This document shows positions 19,810 through 36,945 of a stretch of 64,000 bases of DNA, one piece after another. The notes under the pieces are model-generated. The model saw only the letters and a list, made by a program, of their open reading frames with translations, was not told the origin of the DNA and ran no database searches. Numbering within the stretch: position 1 is the first letter of the stretch; every line of letters starts with the position of its first letter. The DNA is from Terriglobus roseus (GTDB lineage: Bacteria > Acidobacteriota > Terriglobia > Terriglobales > Acidobacteriaceae): positions 806,001 to 870,000 of the forward strand of contig NZ_LT629690.1 of the NCBI RefSeq assembly GCF_900102185.1, written 5' to 3'. Both the position numbers and the translations under genes were made by a program.

Positions 19810-21482
19810 CCGGCCTCGCGATGAAGTTACGCAACATGCCACTGTTCCTGCTTGCCGTCTACATGCCGCTTCTGGCGCAGACATCCGTGAACCAGAACAA
19901 TCCGCACGATACGACCAAGCGCGATCCGGGAGCTGTTCGCACCGCGGCAACGCAGAAGGCACCTGTGGATGCCGGCGTACCGAGCCTCGCGGCCGGAGAT
20001 TGGCCAACCTATAACGGAGATCTGTCCGGCCGTCGTTATAGCCCTCTGACGAAGATCAACACGACCAACGTCAAGCAACTGGAACTGGCATGGACCTTCC
20101 GCGTCAACGAGACGTCGGGTGGCGGACGCCGCATTTCATCCACTCCGCTTGAGGTTGACGGCGTGTTGTACTTCACCGTTCCCAGCCATGTGTGGGCGGT
20201 GGACGCTCGCACTGGCGTCAAGCTTTGGCAGTTCGACTGGAAGAGCAAGGGCGGAGAGGCAATCGGCAATCGCGGTGTGGCCGTTCGTGGCAATACGGTT
20301 TACTTTGAGACGGAAGACGATTACCTTGTCGCGATTGACCGATCCACAGGCCAGGAGAAGTGGCATGCAGAGATTGGCGAGGCTGAAGCGAACCGCGCGA
20401 AGTTCAACTTCGGCAGCGTACCGCCCACCATCATTAAGAACCACGTGATGGTAGGTGTCTCCGGTGATGACTTTGATGTGCCAGGCTTTATCGAAGCACA
20501 CGATCCGGAGACGGGGGCACTACAATGGCGTTGGTATACGCACCCCAACCCCGGGGAGCCGGAGGCGAAAAGCTGGCCTAATGATGAAGCCATGCTGCAC
20601 GGCGGTGGAATGACCTGGGTGCCCGGAACATACGATCCGGAGTTGAACCTCTACTACTTTGGCACAGGCAATGCACAGCCGGTCATCAACGGTGAAGCAC
20701 GGCCGGGCGACAACCTCTATACCGGCACCATATGCGCACTGAACCCGGATACGGGCAAGCTGGTGTGGTACTTCCAACCTAATCCGCACGACACGCACGA
20801 CTGGGATGCCGTGCAGACGCCCGTACTCATCGACGGCGTGATCAATGGCCAGAAGCGCAAGCTGTTGGCGCAGGCCAGCCGCAATGGTTGGTTCTTCGTA
20901 CTGGATCGCACGAATGGCAAAGCTCTGGTCAGCACGCCGTTTGCTCACCAGAGCTGGACGCTCGGTCTCAATAGCAAAGGCCAGCCCATCCCAAACCCAG
21001 AGAAGATGCCCAAACCAAATGGCTCGCTGGTGTCGCCCAACCAGTCAGGCGCGGCGAACTGGCATCCTCCTTCATACGATCCGCAGACCGGACTGTTCTA
21101 TGTCGCCGCATCCGACGCATACAGCGTCTACTACGTTTTCGACAACAACAAGAAGCCCGAAGGATGGGCGGGCAATGATCGAGGCGGCTACTCGAGATTT
21201 GCGTTGCGTGCGCTGGATTACAAGACGGGCAAGCTGAGATGGGAACACCCGTGGATCGCTGGCAGCGCACGCTCCGGCATGCTGACCACGGCAGGCGGCC
21301 TTCTATTCACAGGCGACACCGTCTCAAGCTTCGTTGCGTTCAACGCCGCGACGGGTGCAATCCTGTGGCACGCGGGGCTGGGTAACCCGGTGACCAACGG
21401 CCCAACGACGTTCGTGCTTGATGGGCAGCAATACGTCACGGCTGCAGCGGGCGACACACTGTATGCCTTCGTGTTGCGATAG
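19806..21482 (+). CDS. PQQ-dependent (quinoprotein) alcohol dehydrogenase family protein
   Basis: 558 residues, signal peptide ending near LLAQ. An eight-bladed quinoprotein propeller is predicted: DWPTYNGDLSGRRYSPL at the front, repeated tryptophan-docking motifs (for example TGQEKWHAEIG, TGKLVWYFQP, TGKLRWEHPW, TGAILWHAGLG) and the segment HDTHDWDAVQTP at the place of the catalytic aspartate and metal site. Methanol-dehydrogenase-like enzymes carry a vicinal Cys-Cys before the NRG motif; here the sequence is EAIGNRGVAV and the whole protein has only one cysteine, so that disulfide cannot form. It oxidises an alcohol, sugar or aldehyde in the periplasm using PQQ. No PQQ synthesis genes are in the window. 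Translationally coupled to the diheme cytochrome c before it. Confidence 0.9.
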   Translation: MTGLAMKLRNMPLFLLAVYMPLLAQTSVNQNNPHDTTKRDPGAVRTAATQKAPVDAGVPSLAAGDWPTYNGDLSGRRYSPLTKINTTNVKQLELAWTFRVNETSGGGRRISSTPLEVDGVLYFTVPSHVWAVDARTGVKLWQFDWKSKGGEAIGNRGVAVRGNTVYFETEDDYLVAIDRSTGQEKWHAEIGEAEANRAKFNFGSVPPTIIKNHVMVGVSGDDFDVPGFIEAHDPETGALQWRWYTHPNPGEPEAKSWPNDEAMLHGGGMTWVPGTYDPELNLYYFGTGNAQPVINGEARPGDNLYTGTICALNPDTGKLVWYFQPNPHDTHDWDAVQTPVLIDGVINGQKRKLLAQASRNGWFFVLDRTNGKALVSTPFAHQSWTLGLNSKGQPIPNPEKMPKPNGSLVSPNQSGAANWHPPSYDPQTGLFYVAASDAYSVYYVFDNNKKPEGWAGNDRGGYSRFALRALDYKTGKLRWEHPWIAGSARSGMLTTAGGLLFTGDTVSSFVAFNAATGAILWHAGLGNPVTNGPTTFVLDGQQYVTAAAGDTLYAFVLR

Positions 21483-21497
21483 CGACGGGAGCTGCTC

Positions 21498-23054
21498 TTA
21501 TGGCGTGACCCGCAGGAGAACCACGCCGTGAACCGGCACGGTTGCCTGATAAGGGGTTCCGCTTACGTTGACTGGTTCGTGTTTCCAGAGATCACGTACT
21601 TTGAATCCGGGGCGAGTGGAGAGGGCAGTCCAATCCAGGCTGGCGGGTGCGGGTGCGTTGCCGCGGTTGAAGAGGCCAACGACAGTCGATCCGTCTGACA
21701 TCAAGCGGGTGAGTACTTCTACGGTTCCTTGCTTCGCCTGTCGTTGTACGGGATGGACAGCGGAATCCTGATCGATGGCGATGACATCTCCGTTCATAAG
21801 GATCGATTTCGTTTCTTCAGACATGTTGCTCAGGTCATTGCCTGCGATCAACGGCGCGGACAGAAGTGACCACAGACTCATGTGCGTGCGGTACTCGTCG
21901 GCGCTCATGCCGCCGTTACCCACTTCGAGCATGTCGGGGTCGTTCCAGCGGCCCGGGTGGTTGTAGGTTGCGATGTCGATCTGCGAGAAGCCGATCCTGT
22001 CCATGGATTCCCACTGATCGCGAATGTCGCCCGTGGTTCGCCACAGGTTTCCACCGGCCTTATAGCCCCACTTCCACGGATCGTTTTCGCCGTACTGGCA
22101 AAGGCTGAAGACGATTGGACGGCCAGTGCTCTGAAGGGCCTCTCCCATTTTCTGATAAAGCGCTTGATGGATCTCGGGCGTGGATTTGTAGATATTGCGC
22201 GCGCTGCAAAGATCGTACTTTAGGTAATCGATACCCCAGGATGCATATGTCTTAGCATCCTGCGCTTCATGGCCAAAACTGCCCGTGTAACCGGCACAGT
22301 TCTTGGGTCCCGGTGAAGAATAGATCCCAAGCTTCAAACCTTTGGAATGGACATAGTCAGCAAGTGCCTTCATGTCGTGAAACTTCTGGTTCAACTGGAT
22401 GTTGCCATTGGCATCGCGGCCACCCTCCCACGTGTCATCAATGTTCACGTAGATGTAGCCCATCTTGCTCATGCCGGTGGATACAAGTGCGTCCGCAGCG
22501 GCACGCACATCTGCTTCCGTAACTCGACCTGCGAACTTGTTCCAGGAGTTCCATCCCATTGGCGGCGTACGCACCAGGCCGTTGTCTGGCAAGTCGCGTA
22601 GTGCGGGAAGCGGAAGTGGCGCGGGTGGCATGGCTGCCTCACGCGTGCTGCGCACCGCTTCGCCGGTCATGGTTTGACCGCGAAACCCAGTGGAGGTGAG
22701 AGTCATGGTGTCGCCGTGCAATGCGCCGTCGTATACCGTGGGCCGCCCACCAAAGCCGCCGGGAGTTGCATTAGGTGGTGGCGGAGGTGGGACGGTAGCG
22801 AAGTGAACCTTACCGGCTTCAATGCTCCCTTGCATGGGAATTCCGTTGGGATCGCGACCGTACCACTTGCCCGTCAAGGTATTGCCGTTCTGAGTCAGTT
22901 CGAAGAAGGTTTCGCGAAAGGTACCATCGCCGTTCGGAACTCGCAGATCCCAATATCCGGTCAGATTTCCCTGTGCATGTGCGGCCGCAGCCGTAAGCAG
23001 CACTCCAGCGGCAAAACATACAAACTTACGATCCATGCGGACGCGAATGCTCAT
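21498..23054 (-). CDS. Secreted GH27 alpha-galactosidase-like glycoside hydrolase
   Basis: 518 residues. The signal peptide ends TAAAAHAQ. Residues about 25-150 form an extra beta-rich, Pro-containing domain of unknown type (GYWDLRVPNGDGTF; a PPPPPPP linker). The GH27 barrel starts at TPPMGWNSWNKF, with the nucleophile Asp281 in YLKYDLCS and the acid/base Asp in GRWNDPDM (Asp372 or Asp374), and a C-terminal beta domain. It should release terminal alpha-galactose (or a related sugar) outside the cytoplasm. Start 23054 is chosen because GAGGAA lies 5 bases upstream and the signal peptide follows; a longer reading to 23120 has neither. It converges on the PQQ gene with 15 bases between stops. 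No regulator lies next to it. Confidence 0.9.
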   Translation of the reverse strand: MSIRVRMDRKFVCFAAGVLLTAAAAHAQGNLTGYWDLRVPNGDGTFRETFFELTQNGNTLTGKWYGRDPNGIPMQGSIEAGKVHFATVPPPPPPNATPGGFGGRPTVYDGALHGDTMTLTSTGFRGQTMTGEAVRSTREAAMPPAPLPLPALRDLPDNGLVRTPPMGWNSWNKFAGRVTEADVRAAADALVSTGMSKMGYIYVNIDDTWEGGRDANGNIQLNQKFHDMKALADYVHSKGLKLGIYSSPGPKNCAGYTGSFGHEAQDAKTYASWGIDYLKYDLCSARNIYKSTPEIHQALYQKMGEALQSTGRPIVFSLCQYGENDPWKWGYKAGGNLWRTTGDIRDQWESMDRIGFSQIDIATYNHPGRWNDPDMLEVGNGGMSADEYRTHMSLWSLLSAPLIAGNDLSNMSEETKSILMNGDVIAIDQDSAVHPVQRQAKQGTVEVLTRLMSDGSTVVGLFNRGNAPAPASLDWTALSTRPGFKVRDLWKHEPVNVSGTPYQATVPVHGVVLLRVTP

Positions 23055-23229
23055 GAACATTCCTCGAAACAGCGTGATCAGTGGAAGCCGCTCTGTTTCA
23101 CGACGGTCGCACTGGCCCACTAATGTAACTGTAGGTAAGTGACAAAACGCAAGGACTCAATCGCATGAATGCGAACCGGGCGAGAGATGACGTGTTATTC
23201 CGCTGACATCGTGTGTCGGAGCGCTTAGT

Positions 23230-23802
23230 TCAGGATGAACTGGACACCGAAGGAAGGTACTCCTTGCTCATCTCCACATATCCCTCGCGTGCAGTCTTCT
23301 TACCGCGTTCGAGGTAAAGAGCCTCATCACGAGGTTGCCACGTGTCCAGCCCGTCGACGTAGCGGTTGTACATGCAAAAGGCCGCAGCGATGAGTATTGT
23401 GTCGTGGATCTCCACGTCGGTCGCGCCTTGTGCACGGGCCTCATCGATGTCGGTAGAGGTGACGTTTTTGCCGTCGGTCTGCACCTTGGCTGCGATGACA
23501 AGGAGGGTCTTGAGCTTTGCTGAAATCTCTGCAGACATAAAATCTGCCTTCACACGCTTGACCAGATCGTAGTCGTCGTCCAGGCATGCTGCCGCAATGG
23601 ACCCGTGCACCGTCTGGCAAAAGTAGCAGTCATTCAGATAGGAGACATAAGTGGCGATCAACTCGCGATCCGCCTGTGGCAAGGAGTTTGGCGCGTGCAG
23701 CAAAACCTCCACCAGTTCATTCAGGGGCTTTGCTGTTTCAGGCCGAAACGCCATGGCGCTCCGGATGCCTTGCAGACCTTCAGGGAGTTGAATGTGTGGC
23801 AC
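23230..23802 (-). CDS. Carboxymuconolactone decarboxylase/AhpD-like peroxidase-related protein (copy 1)
   Basis: 190 residues from a GTG start at 23802. AGGAG lies 6 bases upstream, and the resulting N-terminus MPHIQLPEG matches MPHIDLPEG of the paralogue at 25256; a longer ATG reading to 23832 lacks both supports. The fold is the all-helical AhpD/CMD type: RELIATYVSYLNDCYFCQTVHG contains the redox CxxC followed by His, and AAAFCMYNRYVDGL is the second half. Such proteins usually reduce peroxides or, less often, decarboxylate aromatic-derived lactones. It is divergent from an MFS transporter, on whose far side the second copy lies. Confidence 0.9.
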   Translation of the reverse strand: MPHIQLPEGLQGIRSAMAFRPETAKPLNELVEVLLHAPNSLPQADRELIATYVSYLNDCYFCQTVHGSIAAACLDDDYDLVKRVKADFMSAEISAKLKTLLVIAAKVQTDGKNVTSTDIDEARAQGATDVEIHDTILIAAAFCMYNRYVDGLDTWQPRDEALYLERGKKTAREGYVEMSKEYLPSVSSSS

Positions 23803-23975
23803 CGATCTCTCCTGGTTACGTGGTTGCGACAAAGCATAAACCGATATCGAACGAAGAGGATAGATCTAAACCGCATATCCAACTTTAGGTTGAAGACAAA
23901 ATCGCGTCCCACTACCTACTATTCGCATGGATCAGCAAACAACCTTGAATTGCCCACAGAAGGACAGCAGAACGA

Positions 23976-25253
23976 ATGCCTGATCCACGCGCTTCTGAAA
24001 TAAGCGATGAACGCTCGATTCGGTATCCCGGCTGGGGCATAACGGCTGCCGCGTTCGTGGGTGTGATGACGAGTTTCTCGCCTATCGTCCCTTACACCTT
24101 TAGCCTTTTTCTAAATCCTCTTCATACTGCTTTTGGCTGGAAGCGCGAAGCGTTGGATGGCTCGTTTGCAATAGCAGCCATCACAGTAGCCGTGGTTTCT
24201 CCATTCCTTGGAATGCTGCTGGACCGTTTCCCGCCACGCCGCGTCATTCTTCCTTCGATCGTCGTCTTCGCATTGGCGCTGGCATCGCTCAGCCGCTTGA
24301 ATGGTGACATCCACCGCTTCTACCTGACGTTCTTCGTCCTCGGGTTAGTCGCAAACGGCACCGCGCAGTTTGCTTACGCGCGAACGGCACTTACGTGGTT
24401 TCAGAAACGACGTGGCTTGGCACTCGCTTTGATTCTGACCGGCAGCGGTGTTGGGTCGATTCTTATACCGCCTTTGACTCAGTGGACAATCACACATCAA
24501 GGATGGCGAAGCGCTTACACGCTTCTGGGTGGCATTGCCCTGGTTGGTCTGCCGCTCACTGCGTTGCTGGTTCGAAACCGTCCTACCCCCACTCTCGATC
24601 GAAGCAACGCGGTCCCCGCTGGCATGTCCGTCAAAGCATCTCTGGCGAGTACAGCGTTCTGGGTGCTTTGTGCGATCACGATATTGTCCGCCTTCAGCGA
24701 GAACGGCCTTGTCACCAATCTTGCTGCCATTCTCACGGGCCATGGACTTAGCGCAGAAAGCGCGGCACTCGCCCTGTCTGTGCGGGGCGGAGCGGGAATT
24801 ATAGGCAGGCTGTGTGTAGGTTTTCTGATCGACCGCTATTCGCCACAGCGCATCCAGACAATCATCCTGTTGATCGCCGCGTTGGGCACGCTTGTACTTG
24901 CCTTTGCCGGTTCCTCTCTCATGGCATTGCTCGGAGCTGCACTACTCGGAGTGGGTTTGGGAAGCGAAGCAGATGTACTTCCGTATCTCCTTGCGCACTA
25001 CTTCGGCCGCAAACATTTTTCAGTGTTATATGGCCTCACCTGGACGGCCTATGCAGTGGGAGGCGGCACAGGGCCCGTATTTATTGGTCATCTGTATGAC
25101 ACTGCTGGCTTCTACCATTCGCGCTTTATCGTCTACCTGGCGGTAGTTGCTGCTGGGGCTGCGGCTGTGAGTCTAGTGCTTCGAAGCGAACGCAGCACAA
25201 CCCTACACAATTCCAACCTGAATTTTGCAAATCCTGATTTATCCGAGGAGTAA
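23976..25253 (+). CDS. MFS transporter, OFA (oxalate/formate antiporter)-like
   Basis: 425 residues with 12 predicted membrane helices. It opens SIRYPGWGITAAAFVGVMTSFSP, typical of the OFA/monocarboxylate-like branch of the major facilitator superfamily, with the loop 2-3 motif GMLLDRFPPRRV and a matching loop 8-9 motif GFLIDRYSPQRI. It probably moves a small organic acid anion across the inner membrane. The CMD-family gene begins 2 bases after its stop and another is divergent upstream, so the substrate may be a compound processed by, or requiring protection from, those proteins. AGGACAG precedes the start. Confidence 0.9.
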   Translation: MPDPRASEISDERSIRYPGWGITAAAFVGVMTSFSPIVPYTFSLFLNPLHTAFGWKREALDGSFAIAAITVAVVSPFLGMLLDRFPPRRVILPSIVVFALALASLSRLNGDIHRFYLTFFVLGLVANGTAQFAYARTALTWFQKRRGLALALILTGSGVGSILIPPLTQWTITHQGWRSAYTLLGGIALVGLPLTALLVRNRPTPTLDRSNAVPAGMSVKASLASTAFWVLCAITILSAFSENGLVTNLAAILTGHGLSAESAALALSVRGGAGIIGRLCVGFLIDRYSPQRIQTIILLIAALGTLVLAFAGSSLMALLGAALLGVGLGSEADVLPYLLAHYFGRKHFSVLYGLTWTAYAVGGGTGPVFIGHLYDTAGFYHSRFIVYLAVVAAGAAAVSLVLRSERSTTLHNSNLNFANPDLSEE

Positions 25254-25255
25254 CT

Positions 25256-25813
25256 ATGCCGCACATCGATCTGCCCGAAGGTATGCCTGGAATCACTGCA
25301 GGGTTCAGCTTCCGCCCTGAGACTGCGAAGCCTATGCGCGAACTCGCCCATGTGCTTCTGCACACATCGGGCAATGACGGCTTAAGTTCTGCCGACCGCG
25401 AACTTATCGCATCGTTCGTCTCTTCACGCAACGATTGCTTCTTTTGCAAGACAAGTCACGGCGCAGCTGCGGCCCACCTTCATGAGGACGGGGAACGTGT
25501 CGTCAATGCGGTGTGCGCAGAGTACGCCTCGGCACCCATCTCAAATAAGCTCAAGGCGCTACTTGCCATCGCTGAGGCGGTTCAGATTGACGGAAAACGC
25601 GTCACAAAAGATCTTGTAGACAAATCGAAAGCAGGAGGCGCGACAGATACCGATATCCACGACACGGTTCTGATTGCGGCCGCTTTCTGTATGTACAACC
25701 GCTACGTAGACGGCCTGGGTACTTGGCAGCCGCGGGATCCCTCCGCCTACGTGGAAATGGGAAAACGCATGGCAGAACGGGGATACTCCGGCGAACCTGA
25801 ACCTCAGAAATGA
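25256..25813 (+). CDS. Carboxymuconolactone decarboxylase/AhpD-like peroxidase-related protein (copy 2)
   Basis: 185 residues, starting 2 bases after the MFS stop with GAGGAG upstream. It is a clear paralogue of the protein at 23230-23802: shared FRPETAKP near the N-terminus, DRELIA, the redox site NDCFFCKTSHG (CxxC then His) and the long block HDTVLIAAAFCMYNRYVDGL. Presumably a small cytoplasmic oligomeric antioxidant or CMD enzyme, made together with the transporter. Having two diverged copies in one locus may mean a hetero-oligomer or division of labour. Confidence 0.9.
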   Translation: MPHIDLPEGMPGITAGFSFRPETAKPMRELAHVLLHTSGNDGLSSADRELIASFVSSRNDCFFCKTSHGAAAAHLHEDGERVVNAVCAEYASAPISNKLKALLAIAEAVQIDGKRVTKDLVDKSKAGGATDTDIHDTVLIAAAFCMYNRYVDGLGTWQPRDPSAYVEMGKRMAERGYSGEPEPQK

Positions 25814-26054
25814 GGATTGGTGCGATGGCCCGCAATCCCAATCGTCCATCCGATCGGGTTGGCAACCTCTGGTAACGGTTCTGGGTCCGATCAGATTGGT
25901 TCTCACAAGACTGAAATTATCGGTACTGATTTGATGAAGAACCAATTGTCAAATGCGAAAAGATGTTCTCAACTTGTTCCTCAGCAATCCGTTCCCTTGA
26001 ACTCATTTTGCTAATATTGTTCGCACCCCCATACAAAGCAGTTCAGGCAGCTTC

Positions 26055-28607
26055 ATGTCCAGTCCGTTGGCCAAATCCGCCGCCATCGCCACCGCTAAAA
26101 CTGCGTGCGGTGCCGTCATTGGCATGGCTGGAGGTCACTTTGGCGTCCTTCTCCTGGGTGCTCTTGGCGTCGCAGGAGCCACTGCGGCTAGTGAACCAGC
26201 GAAGAAGATACTCGAATTCGCCTCCGAGAAAGCCAGCGAGATTGCTGCGGAAATTGGGCTCGAGGCCCTTCCTGAACGCGAATGGAACGACCCGCTCCAG
26301 CTCGTCTTCACCCAGTCGTTTCGCAAGGCTCTCAATGAGATTCACGCGCATGCCGCGGCCTCACCATCCATTTCTGGCTATGGTGTAGTTACCCAGGAAT
26401 TCAAAGACTGGTTTGGCAGTTGGGACCTCGCTCTTGAAGCCTCTCTTCTGGAAGACTTTGATCAGATCCTCCTTGGCCCCGATACCAGCGAGGAAGCGGA
26501 ATGTCGACTGCGTCACTGCCTTGCCCTCTTGAATGCGCAAGGAATGTTGCTCGAAACCAAAACGAAGAGAGATGCAACTCGCCGCCTAATTACCTTCCAA
26601 CAGAATCAGTTTGAAGAGCCACCGCAAGCGCTGATTGATTTGCTCAAGGACCGCCTTCCCGTCATTCTGCCGCCCATCTTCGACGACTTGCTTACCCGCG
26701 AGAACAACGATCAAGCGAACAAGCTGTACGTCAACAAGTTCATCGAACGTTTTAGGGATCAATTCGGCCCATCGATCCTCTCCATCAAACAGACTGTCGT
26801 ATCCATCAAGCAAGATACGGTCCTTATTCCTGGGATGGATGCCAAGATGGACATCTTGCTAGAGGCTCTTCAGCACAAGGATGCCCTTGAGGCCGCAGAA
26901 AACTCATCCGCTCTGGCAGATTCCCATTCGCGGCTGGTCGTTCCGATTCCTGTTTACGGAGAGTTCGATCAGCTGGACCGTTTTTCCGGTCGGCAGGACG
27001 ACCTGGATTGGCTGACGAAGGTCGGGGGAAGCTGGGAAACCAAGATCGCAGCGATCATTGGCATCGCCGGCAACGGGAAAACAGCGCTTGGCCGTAACTG
27101 GGTAAAGCAACAGATTGAAAAAGCCGGACGCAAGTTCTCCGGCGTATTTGAATGGCGATTTTATCTCCAGCGTAGCCAGGAAGAGTGCGCAGCAGAACTG
27201 GAGAAGTTCCTCACAAGACAAGTCGGAGCGTCCGAACGGCGATCCAACGAGCGCCTCGAAGATTGGCTGGCAGAACAGATAGAACGGCGGCCAATTCTGC
27301 TGTTGCTCGACGGAATTGAGGTCTTACAGACGCGAAGCGGCCAAACCGCCGGTAGATTGCAGAACGGCCCAATTCGCGATCTGCTGGAGCTGATGTGCGT
27401 TAACGAGGTTGCAACGGGACTCGCCGTCGTGACCAGCCGCACTTCGTTATCGGACTTCAAACGGCATGAGGGATTTGCATATCATGAGCGGGAACTCCGG
27501 GGACTCAGCGAAGAGGACGGTCTTGCTCTACTCAAAAACGTGCGAGATGTTGGCGAAGCGGAGAAACGAAAATATGTCCGCGATCTGAAGGGACACCCCC
27601 TTGCGTTGCGGACATTCGCCCTTATCGCGAAACAACAGCCGATGCGGTTCGGGAACGCGGCGGCTTTTCTGGCGATGAAGCTTGATCTGGTAGCAGATCT
27701 CGATCTCAAGCAGCGACTTGAGAAGATATTGAATGCCTACGAGGGCGGTCTTGAGCCCCTTGACCGCGAGATTCTGCGCACAGTCTCGGTTTTTCCGGCG
27801 GGCTGCACAGGCCAGATGATCGCGAGTCTGGTAGTAGTCGCAGCTTCGCGCGAGCGCAGGATCGACCCGAGCCAGGTGGCCCGACGTTTGCAATCACTCG
27901 TCAACGACGGGGTACTTTTCGGCGGTGGCGTCGCTTGGCGAGAAGCTCAGAACTCTTATTCGTGTCATCCGATTTACCGCGAACATTTTCGGGTAAACAG
28001 TAACGACGTGGCACGGGTTGCCGCAACCGTATTGCTTAGCGGCCACCCGTCGGGATTTCAGCCGCGCAATCCTTCCGAGGCTATGCCTTATCTGCATGCG
28101 ATCGAGATCCTTTCAGAAGCTGGGGACTTAAAAACAGCAAATTACGTTCTTGGAAACAATCTCGATTGGGCTGATACGCTGACGGCGATGGGCGAGCCCA
28201 GGCTTGCCCTCGACTGCCTGAACTGCTTTCTCGGCGATGACCGGCGCGCTGTATGTGAGGCCACGTTCAGTAGCCGATGGCTTTACGTAATGACCGAGAA
28301 GTACATCGGGCTTCTGATGGACATGGGGGAGTGGCAGGAGGCGGAACGGCAAGTCCGGCTGGCCGAGGAAGCCGGCGGTGAATGGGAGCCAGCGGGGGTA
28401 CTCGCCCATCTACGGTTCCGGATTGAAAAGGAAATCGGTTCGCCGGCGGCTGCACGCGAAAGTTTGTTGGCCTACGTGAAGCAAGGCTCGCCGAAAATGG
28501 GGCGCCCCGCAGTCTTCGATCTTGCGGAAATCGAGCGTAGGCTTGGCCGGTTCGATGAGTCCTGTCTGTTGACAACGGACTGGATTCGCGAAACCGCACG
28601 ACGGTGA
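26055..28607 (+). CDS. STAND (NB-ARC/NACHT-like) NTPase with helical repeats
   Basis: 850 residues. The first about 50 contain a hydrophobic Gly/Ala-rich stretch (GVLLLGALGVAGATAA) that could insert in a membrane. A helical region to about 285 follows. The NTPase opens VVPIPVYGEF...FSGRQDDL, with Walker A GIAGNGKT (residues 336-343, Lys342), Walker B LLLLDGIE (Asp419), sensor VVTSRTS near 458 and the GHPLAL motif near 511 that marks the NB-ARC-like clade. A winged-helix-like region spans about 555-650, then TPR-like helices to the end. STAND proteins oligomerise on sensing a ligand through the C-terminal repeats. The repeats continue in the next frame downstream, so this may be a split gene. 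About 240 bases upstream hold no gene. Confidence 0.85.
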   Translation: MSSPLAKSAAIATAKTACGAVIGMAGGHFGVLLLGALGVAGATAASEPAKKILEFASEKASEIAAEIGLEALPEREWNDPLQLVFTQSFRKALNEIHAHAAASPSISGYGVVTQEFKDWFGSWDLALEASLLEDFDQILLGPDTSEEAECRLRHCLALLNAQGMLLETKTKRDATRRLITFQQNQFEEPPQALIDLLKDRLPVILPPIFDDLLTRENNDQANKLYVNKFIERFRDQFGPSILSIKQTVVSIKQDTVLIPGMDAKMDILLEALQHKDALEAAENSSALADSHSRLVVPIPVYGEFDQLDRFSGRQDDLDWLTKVGGSWETKIAAIIGIAGNGKTALGRNWVKQQIEKAGRKFSGVFEWRFYLQRSQEECAAELEKFLTRQVGASERRSNERLEDWLAEQIERRPILLLLDGIEVLQTRSGQTAGRLQNGPIRDLLELMCVNEVATGLAVVTSRTSLSDFKRHEGFAYHERELRGLSEEDGLALLKNVRDVGEAEKRKYVRDLKGHPLALRTFALIAKQQPMRFGNAAAFLAMKLDLVADLDLKQRLEKILNAYEGGLEPLDREILRTVSVFPAGCTGQMIASLVVVAASRERRIDPSQVARRLQSLVNDGVLFGGGVAWREAQNSYSCHPIYREHFRVNSNDVARVAATVLLSGHPSGFQPRNPSEAMPYLHAIEILSEAGDLKTANYVLGNNLDWADTLTAMGEPRLALDCLNCFLGDDRRAVCEATFSSRWLYVMTEKYIGLLMDMGEWQEAERQVRLAEEAGGEWEPAGVLAHLRFRIEKEIGSPAAARESLLAYVKQGSPKMGRPAVFDLAEIERRLGRFDESCLLTTDWIRETARR

Positions 28608-28623
28608 TATTGCAGGCTATCTG

Positions 28624-31308
28624 GTGGGCCTTCCGGATGCCTACACGAATCTAGCCTACTGCCTGAGGAAGGTAAATCCGGAACAGTCCGTACGCCTATT
28701 TCGGGCGTGTGGCTGGGTGCAGGACAACTATTTTGGGTACAACGGAGAAGGGGCTCGGCGCGCGGAGTTTGAAATCGCCTATGCGGAAGAGCGGTGGGAT
28801 TTCTATGTGGAGCGCGCACGGGAATATGCCTCAGCGGTGCAACGTCAGGGAAACGCGAGTAGCGCCGCTACATGGCGGACCGCGGTCGCCGAGGGGCTGA
28901 ACAAATCCAATAAGCCGGCGGAGGCAATCCGTGAAGTGCGCCGTGCGCTGTTCGAGGTCCATCCGGAATCCTGGGCGCACCGAAGTGCGCAAGTGCAACT
29001 GGCAAAAGCGAGGCTATTGGAGCGTGACTATGCCATCGCGCTAGGCGAAGGACGTAACGTGATGGCTCTCGCCAGAAGGCTTAGTGACGTGCTCCTTCTC
29101 AGGGATGCAGCGGCCGTCGTTCGAGAAACTGGCGAGGCGCTGAGTGATTTGGGGATTGTGAGCGAGGCCGAAGCAGAGTTGGAAGCAATTCGGCGGCTTC
29201 GCAACCTTCCCAACGGGTGGGATCCCGCGCTTGATGTACTGCCGGGCGAACCAGGATGGGACGAGCACCTCTCGAAACTGCTGATCGAGGCGGCGGGCGC
29301 CAGCAAGGAAGCCCCGCAACGGCTTGACGCGGCACTTGTTCAGGCCGCAGAGCTGGGTTTGGCAACCGCCATCAAGATTCTTGCCAAGCAGGGCGCGTCG
29401 CTCACGGCAAGGGACGAAAAAGGAAATACCGTACTAGAAATCGCCGCAAAGAAGGGGCACTCGGCCGCCGTCGCAGCTCTGCTCGCCTCTGGGCTGCTGC
29501 CATCAAGTGACGGCTCGGGCTGGGTTCCGGCGATTGTGGGCGCGATCGGGGCTGGACACGACGAAATTGCGGCGCAGCTGATTGATGGTCTGGAATCGCC
29601 GGGCGACGAGCGCCTTCGTAACTGGCTACTGCGGACAACCTCAATATCAGGCCTGCGGACCGCTTCTGCCATCCTCAGGAAAGTATCGTCGATCAACGCC
29701 ACCAATAACGCCGGACTGCATCCCTTCGTGAACGCAGCACGCGAGGGTAATCTGCCACTCGTCAAGCTGCTCTTCGATCATGTGCCCCATGTGGATGTGA
29801 CGGAACCAGATGGCGAGACTGCCTTGATTGCCGCTGCAAAAGTTGGGTCGGTGCCGGTCGTCGAGTTTCTGCTGGAAAAAGGCGCCAAAATCGACACCAT
29901 TGATGATGAGGACCGGACTCCTGTACTGGCCGCCATTGAAGGTGGACACACGATGACCGCTTTCGAGTTGATCCAGCGCCAAAGCCCAGGAGAACTGCAT
30001 TCGGATCGGGTCCGGCGTGCGGTGGTAGATGCTGCAGCACGTGGCAGGCTCGATCTGGTCCGGTTACTCGAATCTATTGGCGCGCCGCTTTCAGGCCAGG
30101 ATGGCAGAGGGTGGACACCGATTGTGGCGGCTGCCAGAGCGGCGGCGGAGAGCGTGTTGCGCTTCCTTCTGGAAGCGAAGGTAGATGCTAACGAATCCGA
30201 CAGCGACGGCGAGACGCCTTTTCTGGCGGCGGCTGCATACGGGCATCTCGGGACGCTGGAGCTTCTGCGGAGCGTGGCGACAATCGATGTCCATGACAGA
30301 AGAGGGCGAACCGCCATCAGCCTTGCTGTCGAGAACGGACATCTCGCGGCCGTCCGGCTTCTGAAGAGCTTTGAGCTCGCGGCAGACTTAAAAGACCCGT
30401 CTATACAGAGCGCGCTGCGGACAGCGGCCGAGAAGGGAGACAACGAAGTTCTGCTCGAAGTGCTGCAAGATGCTTCGCCGGAAGACATGTCCGCGATCTT
30501 CCCCGATCGCCTGGATAACGTGCTCGTCGGCGGAGGGGTGGATGCGAACGCCATCCGGTCGCTGGTGGATGATTTTGCGGCCGAAAAGGATCGGGAGAAC
30601 CGTCTGCCGTCGCGAAATCCCACGACGCTTTCGGAGCCAGCGGCACAGGCTCAGATCTGCACAGTGGGACTTGCCACGAACGCGAGCTTCGGAAGGCTCC
30701 CCTTGATGCAGGCATCGCACGAGCTGACAACCGTATTCCGCGATTGGCAAAAGAAAGCCACATTCTCAAACGTCGGCGAATTCGATGTCGAAAGCCTACG
30801 TTGGGCTGCGCTGCCGTTTCTTCCAGGCTGGCGGCTTGCCCTGCTCTCTCACAAGAACGGAGTGGCAGTGCCATTCGTCGTAAAGCAGCAGGATGTCCGA
30901 CTGGCGAGGGCAAAAAATGATTGGCTCTACGACCTGAAGGACGAAACGACAGCAGAACAAAGCCCCGAAATCCTGAAAGCTTACTGCTTGTTCTTTTTTG
31001 CCGTGGTGGTGGGGGCGCGTGGCGCGTTCCGTTTTGTCGATAGGGTGGAGCAGCTTCCATGGAAGCCCAGTGCCGGACAGTCTGACCGGGACCGCGTGAA
31101 GCGGCATCTAGAGGTGCTGCGGTATGTGGGGAAGGCCTCCGATGGGCGGCACGAGCTCCGTGGCACGGTGCTGTTCAAGAACGCGCTTTTCAGCACCTCG
31201 GTGATGATCGGAGAGGACTGGATACAGGAGCTTACAAATGAAGAGCTTCTTGAGGAGGACCTGCCGGTTTATGAGGGTAGGTCGTGGGATCTGTTGGTGA
31301 ACGAGTGA
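28624..31308 (+). CDS. Helical/ankyrin-repeat protein, possible 3' part of the STAND gene
   Basis: 894 residues read from a GTG at 28624 with only a weak GCAGG upstream. Residues 1-220 are TPR-like helices that look like a direct continuation of the STAND protein (AYTNLAYCLRKVNPEQSVRLF). Roughly ten ankyrin repeats follow at about 235-620 (for example GETALIAAAKVGSVPVVEFL, DEDRTPVLAAIEGGH, GETPFLAAAAYGHLGTLELL, GRTAISLAVENGHLAAVRLL). The last about 220 residues (LRWAALPFLPGWRLALLSHK, YCLFFFAVVVGARGAFRFVD) are a domain I do not recognise. The frame extends upstream without a stop across the STAND stop codon, so a one-base frameshift could have separated the two. Ankyrin repeats bind partner proteins; with the NTPase they could form one sensor. 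Confidence 0.8.
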   Translation: MGLPDAYTNLAYCLRKVNPEQSVRLFRACGWVQDNYFGYNGEGARRAEFEIAYAEERWDFYVERAREYASAVQRQGNASSAATWRTAVAEGLNKSNKPAEAIREVRRALFEVHPESWAHRSAQVQLAKARLLERDYAIALGEGRNVMALARRLSDVLLLRDAAAVVRETGEALSDLGIVSEAEAELEAIRRLRNLPNGWDPALDVLPGEPGWDEHLSKLLIEAAGASKEAPQRLDAALVQAAELGLATAIKILAKQGASLTARDEKGNTVLEIAAKKGHSAAVAALLASGLLPSSDGSGWVPAIVGAIGAGHDEIAAQLIDGLESPGDERLRNWLLRTTSISGLRTASAILRKVSSINATNNAGLHPFVNAAREGNLPLVKLLFDHVPHVDVTEPDGETALIAAAKVGSVPVVEFLLEKGAKIDTIDDEDRTPVLAAIEGGHTMTAFELIQRQSPGELHSDRVRRAVVDAAARGRLDLVRLLESIGAPLSGQDGRGWTPIVAAARAAAESVLRFLLEAKVDANESDSDGETPFLAAAAYGHLGTLELLRSVATIDVHDRRGRTAISLAVENGHLAAVRLLKSFELAADLKDPSIQSALRTAAEKGDNEVLLEVLQDASPEDMSAIFPDRLDNVLVGGGVDANAIRSLVDDFAAEKDRENRLPSRNPTTLSEPAAQAQICTVGLATNASFGRLPLMQASHELTTVFRDWQKKATFSNVGEFDVESLRWAALPFLPGWRLALLSHKNGVAVPFVVKQQDVRLARAKNDWLYDLKDETTAEQSPEILKAYCLFFFAVVVGARGAFRFVDRVEQLPWKPSAGQSDRDRVKRHLEVLRYVGKASDGRHELRGTVLFKNALFSTSVMIGEDWIQELTNEELLEEDLPVYEGRSWDLLVNE

Positions 31309-31380
31309 GTCCGGGCAAGCGCCCGCATGAATTTCGGCGCGACATGCTGAGGCTTGCGCCGGGAGCACGGAGGTATTTTT

Positions 31381-32139
31381 ATGTCGGATATCGAAGCCAA
31401 TCACAACGTCCCGGAGCCGAGCCCGAATCTTCCGATGTTCTATCGGAAGCCGCGGCCAATGGACCGGGCGCGAGACAAGGACCTCAAAATCGCGCGTACT
31501 ACGTTCCGGTTCGCCGAGAAGACGAACGCGATTCCGATTGTGATCGACGAGTTCCCAATGGCCTCGGCCTACTACCCGATCGTGTTTGCAGCGGTTGTCG
31601 GACTTGTGAACGATTCCAATCTGTTTGTCGACGGAGAGGGACAGTGGGTGGACAGAGCCTACCTGCCCGGATATGTGAGGCGCTATCCGTTCATTCTCAT
31701 GGACGATCCTGCGCACAAGCAATTCGTCCTCTGCATTGATGAGGAAAGTGACATGCTCGGGACGGAGCGTGGAGACGCGCTTTTTGACGGAGATGAACTA
31801 AGCGACGTTACCAGTTCCATGATGGAGTTTTGTGCTGCTCTACGGCAACAGGGAGACGCCACGAACGAGTTCGTATCAGCCCTAATGGAGTTTGGCATGC
31901 TGACAGAGATGTCTGGGGCCATAGAGCTCCCAGGAGGAAACCTTCAGCTAGGTGGTTTGCTGATTATCGACTCGAAGAAGTTCGACCAACTACCGAACAA
32001 GACATTTCTGAAGTGGCGGGAGAAGGGCTGGATTGGGCTTATCTATGCCCAGCTCTTTTCGTTGCATCGGTGGCAAAACCTTGGGGCGATGACGGCGCCG
32101 GAAGTTCGCCGGGAGGCGGGTGGAACTGCAACGGGCTAA
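31381..32139 (+). CDS. SapC-family protein
   Basis: 252 residues, start chosen for GGAGG (31369-31373) 7 bases upstream. It matches the SapC family by its pattern: an early AIPIVIDEFPMASAYYPIVF, then NLFVDGEGQWVDRAYLPGYV, RRYPFILMDD and FVLCIDEESDML, followed by a helical half and the late GGLLIIDSKKFDQL. Family length is about 230-250, so it is complete. SapC proteins are poorly understood; the name comes from an S-layer locus in Campylobacter, and in other Gram-negatives they sit beside TonB receptors. Here it follows the ankyrin gene by about 70 bases on the same strand, an unusual context that suggests a shared unit. Confidence 0.85.
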   Translation: MSDIEANHNVPEPSPNLPMFYRKPRPMDRARDKDLKIARTTFRFAEKTNAIPIVIDEFPMASAYYPIVFAAVVGLVNDSNLFVDGEGQWVDRAYLPGYVRRYPFILMDDPAHKQFVLCIDEESDMLGTERGDALFDGDELSDVTSSMMEFCAALRQQGDATNEFVSALMEFGMLTEMSGAIELPGGNLQLGGLLIIDSKKFDQLPNKTFLKWREKGWIGLIYAQLFSLHRWQNLGAMTAPEVRREAGGTATG

Positions 32140-32314
32140 GAGCCGCCCTGAGTTATCGATGCTTTTTATCACGAATGGCCGAGTGAGCGTGGATGCTCAA
32201 TTAGAGCTGAAGCGATGCTCTCATACGTGCGCCGTTTATGGCCGCCCCATTCTAATGGCCGGAAATCTCGGCCAAGTTGCTCAAAGAAAAATGAAACTCG
32301 AACCAGATCGGTGT

Positions 32315-32513
32315 ATGGCAGCACCGACAATCACACCCCATCGACAGCAGGAAGCCCGTCGCGAAACAGGACCTCATCGCCGCCAACATCAAGCTCTTGA
32401 TTGAGTAGTTGTAGGCAGGATACTCGGACGCCTTGCCCCATTACCTCACCGCCATGGGGCGTTTTCACAACCACTCTATCGGAAACGTCTTGGAGATCGC
32501 ACGAAAAGCTCGT
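32315..32513 (+). pseudogene. Decayed ardC-like antirestriction gene, N-terminal remnant
   Basis: Read from 32352, one frame gives KPVAKQDLIAANIKLLIE, stop, L, stop, AGYSDALPHYLTAMGRFH and then SIGNVLEIARK. This is the ArdC N-terminal (ssDNA-binding) signature, whose usual form has IEQLEAG at the stops: CAG and GAG have become TAG at 32406 and 32412. The likely original ATG (32315) is in another frame, so a frameshift is also present. Homology fades after about 32513, and the rest of the roughly 300-residue protein, including the protease domain, is missing. ArdC proteins travel on plasmids and conjugative elements, so this marks mobile-element debris at the edge of the STAND/ankyrin/SapC block. 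A small hairpin TGGCCG/CGGCCA lies at 32256-32274. Confidence 0.75.
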
Positions 32514-32543
32514 TCGCCATTCGTTAAGAGGAGAGAAGGCTGG

Positions 32544-33308
32544 CTACCTGTGATTGAGTGCTTGAGCAATACCTTGTTCCGCAAGCGGTGTCATGATCTC
32601 GTAACCAGCTTCCGTAGGATGCACTTCGTCTGAAGACAGCCCCGGTTTCATGCCTCCCGCGTCGTCTGCCATGGCAGTGTAGTAATCGACAAAGACGAAA
32701 TTATTTTCAGCGCAGAATGTTTTGAGCCATCGGTTCACTTCGCGGATATCTGCAACGCCATTGATGCCTGGTCTCCAGCGGTATCGTGCAGCTGGCAAGA
32801 TCGACCCAATCACCAACCTGATTCCGTTGTCCTTTGCGATTGCGGCCATGGATCGGAGGTTGTCCTCAATCATCATTGGCGAAGAGGGGCCCGTGTTGCG
32901 TGCGATGTCATTTGTTCCTGCCAGCAACACAAGCACCGAAGGATGCAGGCGTACGACATCTTGCTGAAATCGAAGCAACATCTGCGGCGTAGTCTGGCCG
33001 CTGATGCCTCGGTTGATGTAACCCTTGCCAGGAAAGAATGTTCCTACCTTGCGGCCCCAACGGTCCGTTATGGAATCGCCGAGGAACACGACGCGTTGTT
33101 CGCCTGCACGTGGCGGTGGCAGTGCTTCATCTTCCGCGCGATAACGTGCGAGGTTAGGCCAGTCGGCAAGCTGTGTGCGCATACGTTCTACATCTGCTGG
33201 TGAAGGCGCAGCAACAACCGGCGTTGTCGCTGTAGATTGTGATTGTTGAGCGAAAGCGGCCGTTGCACAGAAGGACAAAAGTGCGAAGACGACATGTCTT
33301 GTGTTCAT
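32544..33308 (-). CDS. Secreted SGNH/GDSL-family hydrolase
   Basis: 254 residues. Start 33308 is preferred: TGGAG lies 6 bases upstream and the signal peptide (CATAAFAQQ) follows, whereas an earlier in-frame ATG at 33338 has no such site. All SGNH blocks are visible: VVFLGDSITDRWG (nucleophile Ser), the oxyanion Gly in NRGISGQTTPQM, LLAGTNDIARN (Asn) and DEVHPTEAGYE (Asp and His). Members cleave ester bonds of lipids, acylated sugars or platelet-activating-factor-like acyl groups. The gene lies downstream of, and on the same strand as, the TonB receptor at 33428, about 120 bases away, so it may deacetylate the glycan that receptor imports. Confidence 0.92.
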   Translation of the reverse strand: MNTRHVVFALLSFCATAAFAQQSQSTATTPVVAAPSPADVERMRTQLADWPNLARYRAEDEALPPPRAGEQRVVFLGDSITDRWGRKVGTFFPGKGYINRGISGQTTPQMLLRFQQDVVRLHPSVLVLLAGTNDIARNTGPSSPMMIEDNLRSMAAIAKDNGIRLVIGSILPAARYRWRPGINGVADIREVNRWLKTFCAENNFVFVDYYTAMADDAGGMKPGLSSDEVHPTEAGYEIMTPLAEQGIAQALNHR

Positions 33309-33427
33309 TGCGTAACTCCAGTAGCGAAGCGGGGACAAGCTTTACGCGACGACAGGCGTGAGCAAGCCATTAGTGGGAACATGCGCGTCGCTGATGTTGT
33401 GCATCGGCCACGTGCATGATTGTTGCT

Positions 33428-36400
33428 CTAGAAGGAATAACGAGCGGCGATCTGGATGATGCGTGGCGAACCTGCGCTGGTGATCTTTCCAAACTGCGCG
33501 TTGGTCCGCGTAGAGTTCGGGTTCCCAAGGTTCGCGCTGTTGAACAGGTTGAAGAACTCGCCGCGAATTTGCAGTGAGTGCTCATGCCACAATGCAATAT
33601 TCTTGAAGGCAGAGAAATCCACGTTGGAATAACCAGGACCGACCAGCGAGTTGCGAGCGACAGTTCCGTATGGAGTTCCAGCGGGAACTGCGGTGAACGC
33701 GGCAGTGTTGAAGTACTGCGCGATCTTCTCGTCGCGGCTTCGACCGCTAGGCAGATTGGGATTGCCGACCTGGTTTGGGCGATCGTTGTTATTTCCGTTC
33801 AGATTGGAATCAACGCCGGACAGGACATTGATGGGAGCACCACTTCGCAGTTGTATCAAGGCATTCGTCTGCCATCCGCCGAGAATGTTGCGGCCAATTA
33901 AGCCAAAGTGATGGATAGCTGGTAGCGAATAGGAAGCGGATGCGACAAAGATTTGTGGCACGTTGATGTTCGAAATGCCCCGGTCGCGCAACAGGTTATT
34001 GTCATCCACTAACTGTGAGCCCGAGATGCTTGCTACGTCCGCAGATGCAATGTCGATGCCCTTTTGCCAGGTGTAATTGATCAGGACGGAGAAATTGTTC
34101 TGAAAGCGGCGATTCAGTGTGACCTGCAGAGCGTTGTAGTTGCCATTGCCAATGGGGGGCAATTCATAGATGCCCGCGAAAACGTACTGCGTAGGATTGG
34201 GTTGATATGGGCGTCGATTGTTAATGCCAGCAGTTGTGGTCGAGGCGCCGGGGGAATAGATCGGAGCATTCGCATCGCGGACAACATACTGTTTGCGCGA
34301 GCTGCTTCCCACGTAGGCAATCTGTGTCTGGAAGCGACCCGGAAGCTGCTGCTCAACATTCAAGTTGTACTCCTCAACATACGGCGTGCTGCTGTTGCCA
34401 TTTGCCGGGATGCTGGCGATGCTTGCGCCCGATTGAAAGACCGGATTCGTACTGCTTACGATGTAAGGAAATGGATCCGCGGTGCTGCCGTATGGATTCA
34501 CAAGGTTCGGTGTTTTGCTGACGGTGAGATCGAGCGCGTAGGGCTGCTGTTGCAGGTTCTGATTCAAGCCAGTTTGTAGACCTTCATAAAACAGTCCAAA
34601 ACCGCCGCGCAACACTGTCTGTCCTGAGCGAAAGGCGTCATAGGCGAAGCCAAGCCGCGGAGCGACGTTGTGCCACTGCGTGCGCAGGATGCCGTTAGGA
34701 ATGCCGGGATCGTCGGAGAACAGCAGCCCAACGGGAGCAGTGGGAAAGCGGCTTGAGTGGGCGTTCGGGACGAAGGTACCGAAGGTGTGATTCGCGGTCA
34801 TGGGCGAGTAAATTTCCCAACGAACGCCTGCATTCAACGTGAGCCGATGTGTCATGCGCCAGCTGTCCTGCGCATACAGCGCGGGCTCTGTGCCATGCAT
34901 ACGGAAGTAGGTGCCAGTGTTTTGCCGAAACGTGGCTGCGTTCCCCAGGAGGAAATCTGCAAACGCATTGCCGGTGACGGCTCCGGTGAAGGTCGATACC
35001 GTGGATCCCGCGAATACGCCGGTGTCCTGATACTTCTTCCAGACAAAACTGCCGCCCATCTTCAGTTGATGATTGCCATGCGTCCACAAGAAGTTGTCGA
35101 AGATAGCCATGGCCTGCTGCGTCTTGTCATCGTTGCTGCTGGAGCCAGAGCCTGCGGTGAAATATCCCGTGATGGAGACGAAAGGTTGCGTTTGCAACAA
35201 CGCACCTTCGTTGATCGAAGATCCCAACTCAGACAGGTAGTACTTGTTGAAGATGTTCCCGATGACACTGTGGTTCAGCGAGAACGAAAGATTAAGATTG
35301 TTCAGCTTGCTGGGAGACACGATCCACGCATCGTTCAGGATCAGGTTTGTCACGCCATTGGATTGATTCGTTCCGCTGTACGAGAGGATGGTGTTGCCTC
35401 CAGCAGTAGGAGTTAGCGAAAAACCGCGATGGAAGAACGTGGACAGGGAAAGCCTGTGCGACCCAGTCAGTTGCGTATCGAAACGAGCAAAGCCCTGGTT
35501 GGCGGTGCTGTTGCCACTTGTGACCTGTTGCGGGGAGGCGCCGGTCACCGCATCAGCCTTGGGAATCAGCTTCAGGATGTTCTGGGCTACGGGGTCAAGC
35601 AAGTTCGGGCAGATAACACCCTGAACCCCATTGCAGCTGTAGACCGTCCCGTTCGCCTGTTTTGGATAGCGTGATGCTGCTAGCGTCGAGAAGTCTCCAC
35701 CTGCCTGTGCCGGCGTGGGCAGCACGATGCTGGAACTCGTGACCACTACGGGGGATGCGATGCGTATGCCCTCGTAGGAGAGAAAGAAGAAGTCTTTGTT
35801 ATGCAGGATGGGGCCGCCTAAGTTAGCTCCAAACTGGTTCTGCTTCAGCGGGGTTACGCCGTTCACGAACATCTGTTGTGAATTCAGCTTGTCGTTACGC
35901 AGGTAGTCGTAGAACACGCCGTGGTAGGCGTTGGTGCCAGATCGCGTGATCACGTTGACAACGGCACCGGGCAGGCGGCCAAACTCCGCATCGAAGTTGC
36001 TGGTCAGTACGCGGAATTCCTGCAGTGCGTCTGGATTTGGGATCAGGTTGCCACTGTTACGGAAAAACGACGTGTTGTATGCGCCATCCAGATAGAACGA
36101 GTTGTCGTTATTGCGTCGGCCGTTCACGCTGAACAGCACTCCGTTGTAGCTTCCGGTCGGCGCCGTTCCGGAGTAGTTCGTCACACCGGGTGACAGGAGC
36201 GCTAAGCCGTAGGCAGAACGACCGTTCACAGGAAGATCCTGAATCTTCTTTTGGTCGATGGTCTGTCCCAGCTGTGAGTCAGTCGCGTTGATTTCCGCTG
36301 TCTCAGCCGTGATGGTTACAGATTGGTCGACGGATCCTGCCTTCAGGGCGAAGCTGACGTGGGCGTTCCCGTTTACGTCCACCACAACGTTGGTCTGGTG

Positions 36401-36748
36401 CTGCGTCGTGAAACTGGGGGAGACGCACGTCACCTCGTAGCGGCCTGGGGGTAGCGACGGAAAGATGTAGTTGCCAGACGCGTTGCTTTGAGTCGTAAGG
36501 CTCTGCCGAGTGTCCACGTTCGTGATGGTCACTTGTGCATTCGGGATGGAGGCTCCACCCGAATCCTCAATGGTGCCGGAGACAGCGCCGGTGATCGACT
36601 GAGCGAAGGACACGGCGGACAGGGCCAGCGGAGCCAGCGAGGCGAACAGAAGTGTGAAGGTGAGCCAGGCACCTCGTCCCAGTCCCAACCGGGTGCGGAT
36701 GCAAGGGGGTATGTGGGAATGCGTCGGGGACGATTGCGGAACGGACAC
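33428..36748 (-). CDS. TonB-dependent receptor, Oar-like
   Basis: 1106 residues from GTG at 36748, with AGAGGA 4 bases upstream. After a longish N-terminal tail and a signal segment (PLALSAVSFAQ) comes a carboxypeptidase-regulatory-like domain (GTIEDSGGASIPNAQVTITN, then LPPGRYEVTCVSPSF), a plug (LPVNGRSAYGLALLSPGV) and a beta-barrel ending AARYSF with terminal Phe, the mark recognised by the BAM machinery. It is an outer-membrane importer. It is divergent from a CadC-like regulator at 36946, with two perfect palindromes in the 197-base gap, so local repression or activation is likely. The SGNH hydrolase follows downstream. Substrate is unknown but a decorated saccharide is plausible. Confidence 0.93.
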   Translation of the reverse strand: MSVPQSSPTHSHIPPCIRTRLGLGRGAWLTFTLLFASLAPLALSAVSFAQSITGAVSGTIEDSGGASIPNAQVTITNVDTRQSLTTQSNASGNYIFPSLPPGRYEVTCVSPSFTTQHQTNVVVDVNGNAHVSFALKAGSVDQSVTITAETAEINATDSQLGQTIDQKKIQDLPVNGRSAYGLALLSPGVTNYSGTAPTGSYNGVLFSVNGRRNNDNSFYLDGAYNTSFFRNSGNLIPNPDALQEFRVLTSNFDAEFGRLPGAVVNVITRSGTNAYHGVFYDYLRNDKLNSQQMFVNGVTPLKQNQFGANLGGPILHNKDFFFLSYEGIRIASPVVVTSSSIVLPTPAQAGGDFSTLAASRYPKQANGTVYSCNGVQGVICPNLLDPVAQNILKLIPKADAVTGASPQQVTSGNSTANQGFARFDTQLTGSHRLSLSTFFHRGFSLTPTAGGNTILSYSGTNQSNGVTNLILNDAWIVSPSKLNNLNLSFSLNHSVIGNIFNKYYLSELGSSINEGALLQTQPFVSITGYFTAGSGSSSNDDKTQQAMAIFDNFLWTHGNHQLKMGGSFVWKKYQDTGVFAGSTVSTFTGAVTGNAFADFLLGNAATFRQNTGTYFRMHGTEPALYAQDSWRMTHRLTLNAGVRWEIYSPMTANHTFGTFVPNAHSSRFPTAPVGLLFSDDPGIPNGILRTQWHNVAPRLGFAYDAFRSGQTVLRGGFGLFYEGLQTGLNQNLQQQPYALDLTVSKTPNLVNPYGSTADPFPYIVSSTNPVFQSGASIASIPANGNSSTPYVEEYNLNVEQQLPGRFQTQIAYVGSSSRKQYVVRDANAPIYSPGASTTTAGINNRRPYQPNPTQYVFAGIYELPPIGNGNYNALQVTLNRRFQNNFSVLINYTWQKGIDIASADVASISGSQLVDDNNLLRDRGISNINVPQIFVASASYSLPAIHHFGLIGRNILGGWQTNALIQLRSGAPINVLSGVDSNLNGNNNDRPNQVGNPNLPSGRSRDEKIAQYFNTAAFTAVPAGTPYGTVARNSLVGPGYSNVDFSAFKNIALWHEHSLQIRGEFFNLFNSANLGNPNSTRTNAQFGKITSAGSPRIIQIAARYSF

Positions 36749-36799
36749 TGTATCCTCTTATCTCTTCACGGCAAGCCGGGTTTCCGGCTGCGAGTGAAC

Positions 36800-36817
36800 G
36801 GTTGCGATAGCGCAACC
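36800..36817. promoter_or_regulatory. Palindrome in divergent receptor/regulator gap
   Basis: GGTTGCG-ATAG-CGCAACC is a perfect 7-bp inverted repeat about 50 bases upstream of the receptor start at 36748. The size and symmetry suit a dimeric repressor or activator site. Its position close to the receptor points to control of that gene. Confidence 0.45.
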
Positions 36818-36922
36818 ATAGGGGAGACTATGACCGAGCCGTATGCCTTTCACCGTGAATCGCCCGATGCAGGAACATGTGCCTTGTAATGAGATACTTG
36901 CCATCTATTAAAACTGGGCTCT

Positions 36923-36935
36923 TGTAACGGTTACA
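36923..36935. promoter_or_regulatory. Palindromic operator candidate before the CadC-like gene
   Basis: TGTAAC-G-GTTACA is a perfect 6+1+6 palindrome, 10 bases before the ATG at 36946. The half-site TGTAAC resembles LacI/GalR-type operator halves, but the odd spacing differs. It may allow autorepression of the regulator. Confidence 0.45.
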
Positions 36936-36945
36936 GGTAGGTTTT

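Follow-up and report, generated by a model that had tools for sequence, protein, structure and literature searches.

Among bacterial defence proteins, the closest in plan to the locus reported here are Avs and bNACHT, which are STAND ATPases of the nucleotide-binding leucine-rich repeat receptor (NLR)-like kind. The nSTAND1 family (PF20703) is named in PMC8195603. The subject of this study is a block of three genes, P1, P2, and P3, within a window of 64,000 nucleotides of Terriglobus roseus (contig NZ_LT629690.1, positions 806,001 to 870,000), which encode a STAND ATPase, an ankyrin-repeat protein with an additional C-terminal domain (CTD), and a protein of the SapC family (Table 1). An original prediction, made from the nucleotide sequence alone, regarded this block as a candidate sensing or defence unit, and, judged from the sequence comparisons below, the idea is plausible.

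In the explanation that we favour, an NLR-like (STAND) gene for the response to invaders, accompanied by SapC as an accessory, was acquired horizontally, and its copy in the window is now decaying; we place our confidence in this explanation midway between belief and disbelief. The intact form would be that of single-chain relatives, in which an N-terminal region, the STAND ATPase, ankyrin repeats, and the CTD appear on one polypeptide, with SapC close behind in two of them. As read from this domain architecture, the ankyrin array and the CTD would bind an invader protein, ATP-driven assembly would follow, and the N-terminal region, hydrophobic in the window and in Kordia and DUF4062-like by eye elsewhere, would then damage the host cell or signal within it. 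SapC may be a folding or control factor for its large partner, a role for which its frequent position beside large proteins is the sole basis. The window copy may have lost this function.

Table 1. Features of the block and of related loci (coordinates without a locus label refer to the window)
Feature	Coordinates	Strand	Description
P1	26055..28607	+	850-aa open reading frame (ORF); hydrophobic/helical N-terminal region (about residues 1-300), then NACHT-type STAND ATPase
P2	28624..31308	+	894-aa ORF, GTG start; by eye a helical region, then ankyrin repeats (residues 231-605 approximately) and the CTD
CTD	30694..31305	+	C-terminal domain of P2, about 200 aa; two alpha-plus-beta-sheet halves in the model
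P3	31354..32139	+	SapC family protein (PF07277); 261-aa ORF, likely start 31381; about 8 residues missing after PIVFA (near 31588)
P1/P2 frame overlap	28570..28607	+	frame break; both frames stop-free at 28573-28604; longest homopolymer 3 bases
Foreign block	25815..32502	n/a	about 6.7 kb; gap in the alignment with congener G046
ArdC-type antirestriction gene remnant	32331..32504	+	stop-interrupted; database match for 32415-32504 only
SIR2-pAgo gene	L096:700-3981		563 bp upstream of the Kordia STAND-ankyrin-CTD/SapC pair; 1548 bits
VgrG (C-terminal DUF6782 metallopeptidase), signal-bearing CTD protein, PAAR in a row	L125:5553-9478, L126:8004-12039, L127:5366-9311		three genomes
Patatin and nSTAND1-ankyrin-CTD gene, divergent stand-alone CTD gene	L034:3841-10785, L035:5313-12456		Sinorhizobium meliloti plasmids

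As predicted, the three reading frames lie on the same strand. The assignment of P1 as an NB-ARC-like NTPase holds with respect to the STAND ATPase and not with respect to the subfamily, as the Pfam NACHT score is above its cut-off (34.4 against 26.7 bits) and those of NB-ARC (PF00931; 22.7 against 23.5 bits) and nSTAND1 (23.2 against 27.1 bits) are below theirs. The motifs GIAGNGKT at residue 336 and ILLLLDG at residue 414, the P-loop and a Walker-B-like motif, are followed by TSR at 460 and GHPLAL at 513, and the P-loop looks intact. The hydrophobic stretch noted at the N-terminus is real (best 19-residue Kyte-Doolittle mean 1.84). P2 was predicted to be a TPR/ankyrin protein; its ankyrin repeats are evident (Ank_2, E 9e-50), and, since no TPR family is listed by Pfam for P1 or P2 at E<=0.1, the TPR label is unproven. 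The CTD is without a Pfam match up to E 5, in agreement with its description as an unknown domain. P3 is clearly SapC, as anticipated, with a match along the full model (E 5e-56, 190 bits against a cut-off of 28.9, model positions 4-220 of 220). Its start is most likely not at 31354 but at the ATG at 31381, which GGAGG precedes and at which the alignment with relatives begins. No signal peptide is apparent by eye, and the structure model is confident (pLDDT 88.9), with no solved relative returned by a structure search of the PDB.

The pairing of SapC with STAND-ankyrin-CTD genes was followed in 396 genomes of the phylum, for which the counts are lower bounds, as only the best first-look candidates of each genome were scored (two for P1, seven for the CTD). 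SapC was found in three of these, the window's own, G052, and G255, and SapC together with the CTD in the first two (overlap P 0.0008, or 0.03 without the window's genome); G255 has no CTD match. In G052, a member of the same family, a SapC 60% identical to that of the window stands 52 bp behind a single-chain STAND-ankyrin-CTD gene, the corresponding gap in the window being 72 bp. A family-level draw of 200 genomes, which cannot have included G052, yielded SapC in the window's own genome only. We also surveyed the best 80 of at least 583 SapC relatives in a species-genome collection. Of 81 loci, 62 retained SapC after overlap filtering, and neighbours were listed for these; the CTD and ankyrin searches were run on the 1113 ORFs kept; several contigs end near SapC. 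Within these limits, one locus (L096, titled Kordia sp., Bacteroidota) matched both the CTD and ankyrin repeats. Its 1813-aa protein contains nSTAND1, ankyrin repeats, and two CTDs, and between its gene and the start of SapC there is an overlap of 4 bp. The neighbouring SIR2-pAgo gene and this pair possibly form one joint system. The expected co-occurrence, a STAND-ankyrin gene followed by SapC, is thus seen in two other genomes, with SapC found mostly in other contexts.

The CTD profile (A3), used for the phylum search, matched seven of the 396 genomes: the window's own, G052, G478, G204, G333, G403, and G431. G478 has a STAND-ankyrin-CTD gene with no SapC match within the 16.7 kb read, and in G204 the CTD is encoded on its own, after a STAND-like gene (AAA_16, 21.9 bits, below the cut-off of 32.6). 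G333, G403, and G431 each have a VgrG and a PAAR gene with a CTD gene immediately between them, whose product of 226-248 aa begins with what looks by eye like a signal sequence. The PAAR is Pfam-confirmed for G333 only, and the C-terminal part of all three VgrG proteins is a DUF6782 metallopeptidase containing HEMNH. In this position the CTD protein resembles an immunity protein, and the row is possibly an effector/immunity set. A profile built without the Kordia rows recovered two copies in the Kordia gene (E 4e-26) as well as the three VgrG-linked proteins (E 9e-9, 4e-5, and 4e-4). On three Sinorhizobium plasmids the CTD also occurs with patatin, both at the end of a large ankyrin protein, or shortly after it, and in a gene of its own; a Tistrella plasmid has it as a lone gene. 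Its structure model (pLDDT 76.8, pTM 0.74), built from three sequences, has two alpha-plus-sheet halves; with cystatin and PepSY considered as candidate folds, the best structural matches are below the confident range and too weak to name a fold. The CTD as a divergent SapC was considered and provisionally rejected (hhalign probability 3.3%, E 0.013). SapC proteins make up 10 of the 13 weak further CTD-profile matches shown for the 1113 ORFs, mostly through one short local match, and these SapCs are mutually related.

P1 itself was matched in nine of the 396 genomes: besides its own, seven match in the ATPase part and G004 in the N-terminal region. The G004 match is to a TPR protein, at residues 17-264 of P1 (E 2e-8). 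An N-terminal domain common to Kordia and G204 was also sought; with a profile of the window and G004, G204 was reached only at E 0.028 and Kordia was not matched up to E 0.5, so the similarity stands for G004 only, Kordia and G204 sharing merely the hydrophobic start. Counts of GxxxG at this start are unusual in G004 (P 0.0005), weakly so in the window (0.033), and not in G204 or Kordia, and do not clearly support a glycine zipper as its identity. The DUF4062 likeness of the N-terminal regions of G052 and G478 is by eye only: DUF4062 (PF13271) is not listed at E<=0.01 in G052 and falls below its cut-off in G478 (12.4 against 24.7 bits).

The foreign origin of the block is evident from its nearest congener, G046, which aligns to the window at 19478-25814 (92.3%) and 32503-37734 (91.5%), with outer limits that reflect the sequence retrieved, and lacks the block between. 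In the phylum searches G046 gave no match to P1 or SapC. On one contig of G046, some 202 kb separate the inner edges of the two alignments, which makes the site a rearrangement breakpoint as well. At the right edge of the block, 30 aa (32415-32504) are 67% identical (E 1e-6) to ArdC proteins on two acidobacterial plasmids, of Acidisarcina and Granulicella, the latter typed conjugative, and two in-frame stops lie directly upstream; Pfam was silent on the two short pieces of the remnant, searched apart. The dead ardC gene of the original prediction is accordingly confirmed, and from the absence of the block in G046 and the dead gene at its edge, we conclude that it is foreign. The plasmid relatives of the remnant suggest arrival on a plasmid-like element. 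Outside the block, carboxymuconolactone-decarboxylase (CMD)-family genes in opposite orientation, at 23230-23832 (-) and 25256-25813 (+), lie on either side of an MFS gene.

Decay is indicated at two places. The STAND and ankyrin halves, out of frame in the window, are joined with the CTD in a single chain in G052, G478, Kordia, and two S. meliloti plasmids, and P1 and P2 appear to derive from a single ancestral coding sequence. In addition, the PIVF-VGL stretch of SapC has 13 residues in the window against 19-21 in all 53 aligned relatives, a loss of about 8 residues (alignment A6; of 80 loci, 64 were checked, and 11 rows were excluded because of an internal stop). The window copy is probably degenerate. 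A similar state is found in Sinorhizobium medicae T10, in which the ankyrin and CTD frames are likewise separate and the patatin gene is apparently interrupted by transposase-like ORFs (by eye).

The search of defence profiles proposed with the original prediction was made with PADLOC-DB 2.0.0, which covers systems described up to 2023. It returned a model for P2 only, the candidate PDC-M72A, in three stretches confined to the ankyrin part, the best of which covers model positions 202-373 of 392, with no match to the whole model. The patatin of the one S. meliloti plasmid tested matches PADLOC phospholipase effectors. A defence role of STAND-ankyrin-CTD systems is suggested by the SIR2-pAgo neighbour in Kordia, the patatin partner in Sinorhizobium, and the mobile settings.

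Several observations weigh against the favoured explanation, and some of them would suit a rival. P2 retains a long open frame and the P-loop of P1 is seemingly preserved; the frame break may be a sequencing error; and in G204 the STAND-like and CTD genes overlap as separate genes, so the split alone is no proof of decay. Such persisting frames and the arrangement of G204, together with a distance of 16 bp from the P1 stop to the GTG of P2 and an AGG upstream of this GTG (by eye), are consistent with a working two-gene system, in which translational coupling would yield P1 and P2 as two distinct proteins and SapC would be a third component. This we find doubtful in view of the single chain in the relatives, the openness of both frames across the junction, and the residues missing from SapC. 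The surroundings of the genes also count against the favoured explanation: the CTD gene was not found in 79 of the 80 surveyed loci; STAND-CTD genes occur without SapC, on Sinorhizobium plasmids beside patatin and in G478; and in G052 encapsulin- and DyP-peroxidase-like genes (by eye; L016:3093-4986) adjoin the pair. Among the matches listed, the SapCs closest to that of the window (L036-L041, 47-61% identical) have no STAND gene alongside; five of them are closely followed by a gene for a solute-binding-like protein (by eye) of 620-690 aa, and the contig of the sixth ends there. Eight plasmid regions were read, with SapC behind a giant surface-type protein in four (a small gene intervening in one), behind DUF6447 in two, and behind other genes in two. 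SapC could then be a free-standing gene of other function whose place next to STAND genes is fortuitous. The three pairings, which span two phyla and have the same order and strand with gaps of -4, 52, and 72 bp, and the position of SapC directly after the CTD gene in two of three SapC genomes of the phylum make this quite improbable, and the link to STAND genes is likely not one of chance. By its sequence neighbourhoods, SapC is a protein of many different settings, which in three loci, with N-terminal regions that differ, accompanies a STAND gene with ankyrin repeats and CTD.

With respect to defence, P1 and P3 match no PADLOC model (for P1, no family at E<=0.1), the neighbours of the block are metabolic (MFS, CMD, and GDSL by Pfam), and ten flanking genes at 16541-36748, the part of the window scanned, are without a PADLOC match at E<=0.01, so that no defence island is visible at the block. 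The protein might also guard against rival bacteria and their type VI secretion system (T6SS) effectors and not phages, the CTD being an immunity-type domain that would bind injected effectors. The VgrG-linked CTD proteins bring this to mind, but they are distant members and the fold matches are below the confident range, and we consider this alternative unlikely.

The decaying STAND invader-response gene with its SapC accessory is the explanation that we retain, and the CTD with its link to VgrG loci is the most interesting product of the analysis. In a broader proposal, to which we attach a low probability, the CTD would be a new invader-binding domain common to two arms of conflict, the immunity-type protein of VgrG-metallopeptidase loci and the terminal sensor of STAND-ankyrin proteins, with SapC and patatin as alternative partners of one modular NLR-like system recognising injected or phage-spike-like proteins. 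If so, SapC would receive its first proposed role in immunity, and the CTD would be a specific, testable domain linking STAND sensors with VgrG effector loci. Bacterial NLR-like immunity would gain an ankyrin-sensing branch with an uncharacterised partner, and the little-studied SapC family a concrete partner for testing.

In comparison with known systems, the block shares with the Avs and bNACHT-type ATPases the tripartite plan of an N-terminal region, a STAND ATPase, and a repeat sensor, and differs in its ankyrin and CTD sensor, its SapC partner, its split frame, and the lack of a PADLOC match for P1. In the relatives from G052, G478, Kordia, and S. meliloti, nSTAND1 is combined with ankyrin repeats and a CTD, whereas P1 of the window is under the nSTAND1 cut-off and over that of NACHT. 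P3 matches the SapC family over its full length at 190 bits, whereas SapC proteins elsewhere have giant surface-type proteins, DUF6447, or others as neighbours and keep the roughly 8 conserved-region residues that the window copy lacks. PADLOC 'Effector Phospholipase' patatins have their counterpart in the patatin adjoining the STAND-ankyrin-CTD gene of S. meliloti, and none is found among the window genes scanned with Pfam. The VgrG-metallopeptidase/PAAR pairs of T6SS loci contain a stand-alone CTD protein, whereas the ORFs of those three loci have no ankyrin or SapC match.
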